DNA of 64,000 bases. Origin: Lentisphaeria bacterium (lineage in GTDB: Bacteria; Verrucomicrobiota; Lentisphaeria; Victivallales; Victivallaceae). Under the pieces are notes generated by a model. The model made no database searches. It was not told where the DNA came from and saw only the letters and a list, made by a program, of their open reading frames with translations. The DNA is taken from positions 1 to 64,000 of the forward strand of contig JAFTRX010000021.1 of NCBI GenBank assembly GCA_017462015.1, written 5' to 3'. Position 1 is the first letter of the stretch, and each line of letters starts with the position of its first letter. Shown here piece after piece: positions 48,178-63,863 of the stretch. The position numbers and the translations under genes are program-made.

Positions 48178-48199
48178 AACAGAGAGTGTGATTTGTCAA

Positions 48200-48393
48200 G
48201 AATAAAAACAGTCGTTTGCAATCGGCGGATGGATCGTGCGGCAAGGTTGCTGGCAAATCAAGGCGAAGCTGAAGGACCCGTCTCCGCTGAAGCTCCGCCG
48301 TGGCAAGGTGTGAAGATGCTTGTCGCGGCGTAATGTAATGAAGCCGGAAGTCCGCAGATTTGCCGGTAAGAAGCGCCCACGAGGCGCCGCCGT
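48200..48393 (+). repeat. Structured dispersed repeat, copy B
   Basis: Second copy of the element at 1-170. Stems: 48223-48228 with 48387-48392; TCGTG 48234-48238 with CACGA 48378-48382; GGC 48240-48242 with GCC 48375-48377; and ten pairs 48250-48259 with 48357-48366. Compared with copy C, the second stem has changed TCGCG/CGCGA to TCGTG/CACGA, keeping pairing. The loop region is 97 nt instead of 52, a 45-nt gain. It ends about eight bases beyond the stop of the minus-strand S66 peptidase gene. Confidence 0.75.
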
Positions 48394-53831: not shown

Positions 53832-53887
53832 CACAGCTATTCCACAAAATCAGCTGAGCGTTTATTTTCTCTGTTTTTCAGCAGAAG
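53832..53887 (+). repeat. Short intergenic repeat, copy 2
   Basis: Partner of 2482-2537, aligned without gaps over 56 nt. It lies about 30 bp upstream of the ferredoxin -35 box. Confidence 0.5.
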
Positions 53888-53924
53888 AAAATTGCATTTT
53901 GAAAAAGCGATTTTGTCAGATTTT

Positions 53925-53942
53925 GTTTTGCTTAAGCAAAAC
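53925..53942. other. 18-bp perfect palindrome
   Basis: GTTTTGCTTAAGCAAAAC. It could be a binding site or a small bidirectional terminator for the PpiC-type gene read through from 54157. Confidence 0.5.
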
Positions 53943-53974
53943 GCGCGTGCGCTCTGCGCCGCGCCACCAGCGGG

Positions 53975-54140
53975 ACTGCTTCAAAAATAGTTTGTTGCAG
54001 TCGGCGGATGGATCGCGCGGCAAGGTTGGGGGTAAATCAAGGTGAAGCTGAGGGAGTGTACGACTGTACTCGACCGAAGCTGAATCCGCAGATTTGCTCC
54101 CAAGATTGCCCGCGAGGCGCCGCCGCAGGTCGTTTCTTGT
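53975..54140 (+). repeat. Structured dispersed repeat, copy C (best-folded copy)
   Basis: Most regular of the three copies. Stems on the plus strand: CGGCGG 54002-54007 with CCGCCG 54120-54125; TCGCG 54013-54017 with CGCGA 54111-54115; GGCAA 54019-54023 with TTGCC 54106-54110; eleven pairs 54028-54038 with 54091-54101 (two wobbles). An inner hairpin GTAC 54058-54061 with GTAC 54066-54069 has a GACT loop. A single C (54018) is bulged as in the other copies. T-rich sequence follows. It ends about 20 bp past the stop of the minus-strand PpiC-type gene. Confidence 0.8.
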
Positions 54141-54156
54141 GAAACAGCTGATATTG

Positions 54157-61907: not shown

Positions 61908-63863
61908 ATGCATAACCATCGTTCTATTTTAGGCAATTACGTTCAAGATTTCACCGTCTCGCAGATCCGCGCTCTCAACAAAGAGCGCGATGCCCGTCTC
62001 GCCGCGCTCAAAACCAAAGCTGATGCCGAAGCTTATGTCAAAAGTGTCCGTGAAAAAATCGCCGCATGTTTCCCCATGCCCGATGACCACTCTGTACCGC
62101 AGTGTGAAATCGTCAAAACGGCGGAATATGACAAATTTAAAATTGAAAACATCATCTACTTAAGCCGAAACAACTTTCCGGTCACCGCCAATTTGTATGT
62201 TCCCAAAGCTCCCGGAAAACACCCCGGAGCGATCATACTTTGCGGTCACGCCGGAGAAGGCAAGAGCTGTTCCGCTTACCGCAGCGGTGCCGCCAACCTC
62301 GCTGAAAAAGGTTTTGTCGTACTGCTAATTGATCCCATTGCCCAGGGTGAACGCTGGCAGTTTATGAATGTTCCCCACGCCTCCGCTTTCCACGGCAAAT
62401 GTACCAGAGAACACAACATGCTGGGCAAACAGCTCCGGCTCTGCGGAGAATTTTTCGGAGCGTGGCGGGCATACGATGCCATCCGCGGTCTGGATTACCT
62501 TCTTTCCCGCCCGGAAGTAGACCCGGCGCGCATCGGTATCACCGGTAACTCCGGCGGCGGTACCATGAGTTCCTTCGTGCAGGCGCTCGATGCCCGTTTC
62601 ACCATGGCTGCCCCCAGCTGTTACATCACCAGCTGGAAACGCAACTTTGAGAACGAACTTCCCGCTGACGTTGAACAAATTCCTCCCGGTATCCTCGCCG
62701 CCGGTTGCGAAATGGGTGACCTCATCCTCTGTTACGCCCCCCGCCCGATACTGCTGCTGGGACAGAAGAACGACTTCTTCGATCCCCGTGGCCTCAACGA
62801 AACTTACGAACAGGTCAAAAAAGTTTATGCTCTCCTCGGTGCGGAAGATAACGTGCAGTGTTTTATTGGACCAACTAACCACGGTTACTCTATCGAAAAC
62901 CGCGAGGCGATGTACGGATTTTTCACCCGGCACGCCGGTTTGCCCATTGACGGCAAGGAAAATTTCGACAGCAATATCATTACGGCGGCATCACTCAACT
63001 GTACTGAATCCGGTCAGTTGATGACTTCACGTCCGGAATTTGCTCAGGTTCACGACCTTACGGTCAAACTCAGCGCCGACCTTGCCGCCGCCCGTCCGGT
63101 GTACGACGTGTCCGGGCTGAAAGCCAAACTCCGGGAACTGCTGCAGCTTCCGGAAAAGATCGAAGTCCCCTATGCCCGTACACTGCGACCGTTCTGTATC
63201 CCCGGTGTTCCGGACACCCGGCGTTACTTCAACCGCTTTGCGCTGGAACGGGACAATGCGCCGTTGACCATGCTCAAACTCAATTCAGAGCCGCCGTATT
63301 TCCACTTCCCCGCGCTGGATACGCTCACTATTTATGTGCCGCATCTTGATTCCGGAAGCGAACTTATCAAACTTGACCGCGCCGATGATGACATTTACGC
63401 CGGTCTCGATGTCTCCAACATCGGCGAAACGCTGTCACTGGCTACCGATCATTCAGAGGAAGGGCGCAAATTTTCTGCACCGTACAGTCAGGATTATCAC
63501 TACGATTCCGTGCAGTTGATGTACGGTACATCAATGATTGCCCGCCGGGTGGAGGATATCCTCTCTGCGATCGCTTTCGTCAAGGCGCAGGGTGTAAAGC
63601 ACGTCAAACTCACCGCGCGCGGTCAGGGTGCTGTCCCGGCGGCAATGGCGGCACTGCTTTCTGATGACGTGGAAGCAGTCACGCTGTACGATACTCTGGA
63701 ATCTTACCAGAGCGTGATAAACAAACGTGTCTCCGACTGGCCGCAGTCATGCATGATCCCCGGTGTTCTCAAATACATGGATCTCCCGGATATCTACGCG
63801 GCTCTCAAGGCGGAAAAACCTGCCGTCATCACTTTTGTCAATGAACCCGTTCCGGAGTTTTAA
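61908..63863 (+). CDS. Two-domain alpha/beta hydrolase, acetyl-xylan-esterase-like
   Basis: A 651-aa protein with no signal peptide. The first domain (about 60-345) is a full alpha/beta hydrolase: LYVPKAPGKHPGAIILCGHAGEG, nucleophile Ser215 in GITGNSGGG, GQKNDFFDPRG for the acid, and His325 in NHGYS. The C-terminal domain (about 400-650) repeats the fold in outline, but its elbow reads TARGQGAVPAAMAAL, with Gln where the nucleophile should be, so it looks inactive. This resembles carbohydrate-esterase-like proteins of PVC bacteria. It follows ddh closely and ends at a strong terminator. The substrate is unknown. Confidence 0.75.
   Translation: MHNHRSILGNYVQDFTVSQIRALNKERDARLAALKTKADAEAYVKSVREKIAACFPMPDDHSVPQCEIVKTAEYDKFKIENIIYLSRNNFPVTANLYVPKAPGKHPGAIILCGHAGEGKSCSAYRSGAANLAEKGFVVLLIDPIAQGERWQFMNVPHASAFHGKCTREHNMLGKQLRLCGEFFGAWRAYDAIRGLDYLLSRPEVDPARIGITGNSGGGTMSSFVQALDARFTMAAPSCYITSWKRNFENELPADVEQIPPGILAAGCEMGDLILCYAPRPILLLGQKNDFFDPRGLNETYEQVKKVYALLGAEDNVQCFIGPTNHGYSIENREAMYGFFTRHAGLPIDGKENFDSNIITAASLNCTESGQLMTSRPEFAQVHDLTVKLSADLAAARPVYDVSGLKAKLRELLQLPEKIEVPYARTLRPFCIPGVPDTRRYFNRFALERDNAPLTMLKLNSEPPYFHFPALDTLTIYVPHLDSGSELIKLDRADDDIYAGLDVSNIGETLSLATDHSEEGRKFSAPYSQDYHYDSVQLMYGTSMIARRVEDILSAIAFVKAQGVKHVKLTARGQGAVPAAMAALLSDDVEAVTLYDTLESYQSVINKRVSDWPQSCMIPGVLKYMDLPDIYAALKAEKPAVITFVNEPVPEF

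Follow-up and report, generated by a model that had tools for sequence, protein, structure and literature searches.

The 64-kb window (the whole stretch of DNA analysed here) contains three copies of a structured repeat, which we designate A, B and C. All three lie on the plus strand, at positions 28-154, 48221-48393 and 54000-54126, respectively, and are matched at E≤0.001 by R1, a covariance model built from 35 diverged copies. The fold they have in common is a plus-strand rod of about 125 nt. In copy C the rod (54000-54126; R1 score 137.5 bits) has a predicted plus-strand RNA fold of -69.9 kcal/mol (z -6.4) that no shuffled sequence equals. Its apical hairpin, GGAG...CGACC at 54053-54075, is conserved in sequence in the alignments, and the folds and motif strings place a conserved GG/GA internal loop with its 5' side at 54024-54025 and its 3' side at 54104-54105. 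Read by eye against the type I ends described below, the whole of copy C is a MITE-like, type I-like unit on the plus strand at 53832-54152, with inverted repeats at about 53832-53853 (left) and about 54137-54152 (right); no clear target duplication flanking it was seen by eye, and it is not among the 32 units in which both ends were recognised by script. The left part of copy A lies beyond the contig start. Its rod (28-154; 117 bits) folds at -62.6 kcal/mol (z -5.6), again equalled by no shuffle, and is followed at 165-180 on the plus strand by a right inverted repeat, TTATGAGACAATAAAG, which was read by eye against other right ends and whose end is not sharp. Copy B (48221-48393; 66.8 bits) has an enlarged apical domain and a fold of -76.4 kcal/mol (z -3.1), with one of 200 shuffles as good. 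Beside it, at 48180-48220 of the plus strand, is the remnant of a type II left part, read by eye against the promoter register; a minus-strand -35 box, TTGACA, is retained there at 48194-48199, and no -10 box was seen by eye at the expected spacing. On the minus strand copy C folds at -49.1 kcal/mol (z -3.2), and copy A at -41.3 kcal/mol (z -0.65), which is chance level (50 of 200 shuffles as good); the value for copy B, -59.5 kcal/mol, refers to a slightly longer stretch and is without a shuffle control.

The original prediction quoted covariations between the three copies, which are indeed present in the sequence, and drew a single nested hairpin for all of them. The common rod holds; in copy A pairing is interrupted at the base of stem 2 (its 3' side is CGCTCTTC in A, CGCGAGG in C and CACGAGG in B), and the apex of copy B is enlarged. 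The expectation that no known RNA family would match was borne out: Rfam 15 gave no match at gathering score in the window and three sub-threshold matches only around copy C, so that a known RNA family was rejected as an explanation. Extra hairpin modules nested within the rod were observed in several places, i.e. at L273:3944-4241, L274:3389-3718, L242 and L243 and in the window at 48221-48393, and give the impression of small palindromes that have inserted into larger ones. On the same contig (C87, L129:2130-2669) the window is followed by three further rods within 700 bases of its right edge and by another one near the contig end.

The rod fold is kept by compensatory change. In an alignment of 35 copies (A3), from which the consensus structure was itself derived, double changes occur at 20 of the 36 pairs and 96.5% of the cells are paired, as compared to 85.7% in shuffled and 34-40% in slid controls. 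A second alignment (A5) consists of rows of relatives fitted to the model (97 rows, 87 of them distinct, two of the 97 coming from the source genome, i.e. the genome that contains the window). Here 33 of the 36 pairs have changed on both sides, and 94.4% of the cells are paired versus 78.6% after shuffling and 33-45% after sliding. The fold also carries the mark of one strand. The claim that the wobbles, read on the plus strand, are of the G-U and not of the A-C kind is upheld on larger sets: among 67 distinct rows from the top 76 of A5 we counted 160 G-U, 11 A-C and 62 G-A plus-strand cells. GG/GA and tandem GA internal loops are conserved in the plus-strand fold; the GG/GA loop motif strings are found in 100 of 103 copies of the source genome and in 56 of 65 copies of relatives, and the apical GGAG/CGAC motif strings in 84 of 103 and 53 of 65, respectively. 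The plus strand is indicated as the folded one by the purine mismatches as well as by the G-U wobbles, and the predicted one-strand signature recurs in relatives, the plus strand being more stable in 23 of the 23 copies folded both ways. The further step of the original prediction, that selection acts on a plus-strand RNA, is another matter: the plus-strand signature stands, but RNA is not implied by it, because a folded single strand of DNA would leave the same trace.

The element was originally described as having three copies. The source genome contains at least 138 matches to R1 at E≤0.01, a lower bound as 150 of 1396 candidates were scored, and some of these matches are partial, interrupted or at contig ends. 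A DNA search with copy C gave at least 46 matches in the same genome (40 of 230 candidates scored). DNA matches were found in 18 of the 34 genomes of the genus (source genome included) and in none of 26 other genomes; one of the 18 (G013) has a single weak DNA match (E 1.1e-4) and no R1 match. When 288 genomes of the phylum were searched with R1 at E≤1e-4, with stricter filters and 12 candidates scored per genome, at least 13 genomes were matched. Eleven of these, counting the source genome, belong to the genus, and the remaining two come from two further genera of the family; in the latter two the apex is retained and the lower rod is different. The element is known so far from one bacterial family only. 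The covariance-model search that had been proposed as a check thus gave matches in the source genome, in its genus and in two more genera of the family; it found many copies whose pairs covary, and neither a lack of further copies nor independent variation of paired positions. A pattern search of named genomes returned 38 stretches, and the sole plausible one by title is a Lentisphaeria MAG from sheep colon, the 37 others having been set aside on their titles; R1 gave no match on the MAG fragment, which ends about 10 nt past the pattern match, and an assignment of the element to Lentisphaerae is plausible, though weakly supported here. Seven pattern matches occurred in viral contigs, none of them confirmed by R1. 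Close-set rods resembling tandem arrays were seen at L230, L231, L238, L243 and L133 (in G015, G030, G021 and the source genome).

What had been described as a small intergenic RNA element turned out to form the inner part of a transposon-like repeat that is present in many copies and has inverted repeats and target duplications. Alignments of the flanks show that the ends fall into two classes, type I (CACAGnTrTCCCATAA...TTATGGGACAGCTGTG) and type II (GTTAATGTCCCRAATTTTGTGAAA...TTTCACAAAAAATGAGACAATACC); an autonomous parent would be expected to have ends resembling GGTAATGTCC. Among the 138 copies of the source genome at least one end was recognised in 84, both ends in 32 and neither in 54; units with both ends are 229-328 bp long. 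Target duplications of 8-10 bp with at most one mismatch flank 18 of the 32 two-ended units, whereas 200 shuffles of the flank partners gave 3.2 on average and 8 at most. In a related genome (G008), 20 stretches examined contained 22 end pairs of 142-330 bp, i.e. inverted-repeat pairs (at most three mismatches at either end) beside which duplications could be seen by eye, and some of the units read there carry extra hairpins nested in the rod. The family thus has the features by which MITEs are recognised, namely terminal inverted repeats, target-site duplications and a short length without a transposase gene, and on the strength of the recognised ends, the target duplications and the end pairs we regard it as MITE-like. 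Good ends are also seen in four G008 units with a length of about 230 bp (L270:145-374, L272:4673-4902, L273:2020-2249 and L285:1969-2199), and the first two of these, as read, have a common truncated rod. The shortened form of about 230 bp may therefore also have spread, and since the two truncated-rod units have good ends, the full rod seems not to be needed for moving. Within the retrieved stretches that the comparison of orthologous insertions covered, units with different ends are found behind one and the same gene in G018 (L235:2252-2508) and in the source genome (contig C129, near 62485-62638), which suggests independent insertions.

Many type II units have a strong, sigma-70-like minus-strand promoter of the type TTGACA-17-TATATT that points out of the left end. 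With a threshold of at least 10 of 12 matching positions, the outward promoter is present in 19 of 127 copies of the source genome (in 16 cases at a distance of 20-22 nt from the rod) and in 22 of 70 copies of relatives (21-25 nt from the rod), as compared to a mean of 2.4 and a maximum of 5 of 127 in mononucleotide shuffles; in one copy it was also found by a standard scan (11/12). A plus-strand promoter reading into the rod was seen in one of 127 copies of the source genome and in none of 70 copies of relatives, and no intrinsic terminator was found in the one copy scanned. According to a home-made gene caller applied to the retrieved sequence, any overlap with a predicted gene is limited to 30 nt in 133 of the 138 copies. 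The first gene that follows the rod in its own sense is on the same strand in 59 cases and on the opposite strand in 61, so the copies have no orientation bias towards the following gene, which again speaks against a small intergenic RNA element; the gene behind the rod is on the same strand in 62 and on the opposite strand in 42 cases. In about 20 cases a start in the same sense follows the copy at a distance of 22-62 nt. There is no replication-strand bias, the GC skew in the sense of the rod being positive in 65 of 133 copies.

Contig ends in the source genome cut through rods at one spot. Ten matches to the end of an insertion sequence were found in this genome, corresponding to eight loci, a second tandem end at one of them and one match of 15 bases. 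At seven of the eight loci (L171-L178) the IS end is located in the apex motif after ...CTC, at the equivalent of 54071/54072 on the plus strand of copy C as judged from the IS junctions; at L178, one of these loci, the lower arm cannot be recognised as that of the rod. At the eighth locus the IS end lies in a leader hairpin before a rod. The IS copies of the source genome are cut by contig ends, and a complete copy was found within a rod of G018 (L307:852-2380), with ATGAGAGAC and GTCTCTCAT near its ends and a transposase in which both IS110 domains score over cut-off (PF02371, E 6e-18; PF01548, E 3e-15). This one complete copy read thus has the IS110-type domains and subterminal inverted repeats of the IS1111 group. 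Twenty IS loci were fetched from relatives; two, both from G018, are in rods and the rest are elsewhere. At five of the latter (L310, L312, L316, L322 and L326), in other genomes of the genus, a related IS left end is located just downstream of a gene that resembles, by eye, a tRNA gene.

A parent element was also sought. Three wide end pairs were found in the retrieved sequence, one enclosing the IS110 element and two enclosing ORFs of 401 and 324 amino acids. IS1 and IS1595 were considered because of a presumed similarity of their end sequences; their transposase families were found in none of the 34 genomes of the genus, whose assemblies are incomplete. The IS256 family occurs in 6 of these 34 incomplete assemblies and was not found in the source genome. 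Neither the IS1, IS1595 and IS256 families, absent or unlinked to the rod in these assemblies, nor the wide end pairs could be shown to fit as the parent. A REP element with a Y1 (RAYT-type) transposase is not supported, as PF01797 is not linked to the rod: it was not found in the source genome and occurs in 6 of the 18 rod-bearing genomes and in 5 of the 16 others.

The number of copies allows one to ask where selection acts. In close subfamilies of the source genome, strictly private changes at Watson-Crick pairs comprise 2 G-U, 2 A-C and 6 other changes in 6266 cells, with 3 further private pair changes in which the partner is changed as well, and 8 changes in 5329 cells are at unpaired sites; in relatives, 2690 cells at pairs contain 3 private changes, none of them G-U or A-C, and 2186 unpaired cells contain 4. 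No strand bias is seen in the private mutations of the source genome, a test that has 4 informative G-U or A-C changes, i.e. small numbers. If all singletons are considered, there are 25 in 6266 cells at Watson-Crick pairs (9 G-U, 7 A-C, 9 other), 17 more in which the partner is also different, and 56 in 5329 cells at unpaired sites, so that singletons of all kinds are scarcer at Watson-Crick pairs than at unpaired sites. Shared variants consist of 6 G-U, 0 A-C and 5 other changes and 13 compensatory cases. On the trees, changes from Watson-Crick pairs to G-U versus A-C number 8 versus 2 (source genome) and 12 versus 3 (relatives) on internal branches, and 18 versus 7 and 9 versus 8, respectively, at the tips. 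The fold is probably kept while the elements spread, with single copies mostly drifting; some selection may also act in place on single copies, because singletons are rarer at pairs and G-U changes are in excess at the tips in the source genome.

We conclude that the element is a MITE-like family whose core is structured in a strand-specific manner. How the core works is a more difficult question. Our preferred reading, to which we would give an even chance, is that the units are MITE-like non-autonomous transposons, that the plus-strand fold most likely acts as RNA, and that an intact fold is what distinguishes the units that spread. The order within a unit would be left inverted repeat, outward leftward promoter (in many type II units), short leader, rod of about 125 nt, and right inverted repeat. 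A putative transposase supplied in trans would insert the units with the target duplications of about 8-10 bp that are seen. The fold would then act at the RNA level in transcripts that read into the unit from the left, and we speculate that a co-transcriptional hairpin protects or processes the transcript and so lowers the cost of an insertion. Intact-fold units would be the ones that spread, with single copies mostly drifting afterwards, and the IS1111/IS110-type element would use the apex as its landing site. Several observations run counter to this reading. Promoters reading into the rod in the plus sense are nearly absent (1/127 and 0/70), and the scarcity of singletons at pairs and the G-U excess at the tips in the source genome would fit some selection in place. 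The truncated-rod units of G008 are a further difficulty, as are the 54 of 138 copies with neither end and the transposase families tried, which are absent or unlinked. RNA is nevertheless the level of action that we favour. It is possible, if rather doubtful, that the rod is the mobile element's own functional RNA, which might for example aid or control transposition of the element or shield host transcripts.

A rod that works as folded, single-stranded plus-strand DNA in transposition or replication, and not as RNA, seems unlikely to us. It would account for a one-strand fold without a promoter reading into it and for the transposon-like end, at least one, beside 84 of the 138 copies, and G-A and G-T pairs form in DNA too. 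On the other hand, the rod bears no relation to GC skew (65/133) and none to the Y1 family PF01797, with the distribution given above, and the inverted repeats and duplications suggest a double-strand transposase. We think it improbable that the rod is a host RNA, cis-regulatory or stand-alone and non-coding, with each copy useful in place. The strong covariation, the roughly 20 copies 22-62 nt before a same-sense start, the rarity of singletons at pairs and the tip excess of 18 to 7 in the source genome all agree with such a role, but the sense orientation of a cis-regulatory element is not seen (59 same versus 61 opposite), the private changes at pairs (10 in 6266 cells, 3 more having a changed partner, as compared to 8 in 5329 cells at unpaired positions) do not favour it, and neither do the transposon-like ends and duplications. 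Finally, the pairing could be a mutational by-product of template switching in DNA quasi-palindromes, without selection on the fold. The element is a long quasi-palindrome, and correction by template switching can mimic compensatory change. However, this process should erase mismatches, while the GG/GA strings persist (100/103 and 56/65), as do the GGAG..CGAC strings (84/103 and 53/65), and it predicts no excess of G-U over A-C, where 160 to 11 were observed; we therefore consider it very improbable.

It is instructive to compare the general features of the family to those of known repeats. The rod is unlike REP elements in that it has no link to a Y1 transposase and sits inside a transposon-like unit; REP elements are also much smaller. 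Both REP and attC are known targets of IS1111 elements, and the likeness is that a folded repeat serves as landing site for an element of this type (PMC11187229). The ERIC/IRU repeats of enterobacteria are similar in being intergenic repeats of about 127 bp with many copies, a long stem-loop and MITE-like ends (PMC2229807, PMC2267715), and a shared structure of ERIC has been predicted with RNAz (PMC2267715). ERIC differs in its host lineage, and the terms "compensatory" and "covaria" are absent from PMC2229807 and PMC2267715; we set the two apart by description. The Correia/NEMIS elements of Neisseria resemble the present family as MITEs with more than 120 copies, inverted repeats and sigma-70-like promoters, and their stem-loop transcripts are cut by RNase III (PMC10969869, PMC2229807). 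In contrast, and again by description, the structured part of the present family is an internal rod with a one-strand signature beside an outward promoter. MITEs with stem-loops, promoters and RNase processing are thus already known (PMC2229807, PMC10969869). What sets the present family apart from known MITEs is the strength of the compensatory change and the one-strand character; this is weak evidence of novelty, judged from the wording of these papers, "compensatory" being absent from PMC10969869 as well. Literature searches on MITE or REP repeats of the Lentisphaerae/Victivallis type found no published account of the present family.

As a rule the sequence between the ends of a MITE is seen as a passenger. 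In the present family one strand of it remains folded in different species, and 33 of the 36 pairs have changed on both sides. The family offers a natural example of an IS1111-type element landing in a folded repeat, and, with more than 100 copies per genome, it makes it possible to test directly whether selection for structure operates at the host sites or through the spread of the element. Should the fold work at the RNA level, selected RNA devices would be among the things that bacterial MITEs can carry, and if the rod should prove to be the element's own functional RNA, it would be a MITE non-coding RNA under strong structural selection throughout the genus.
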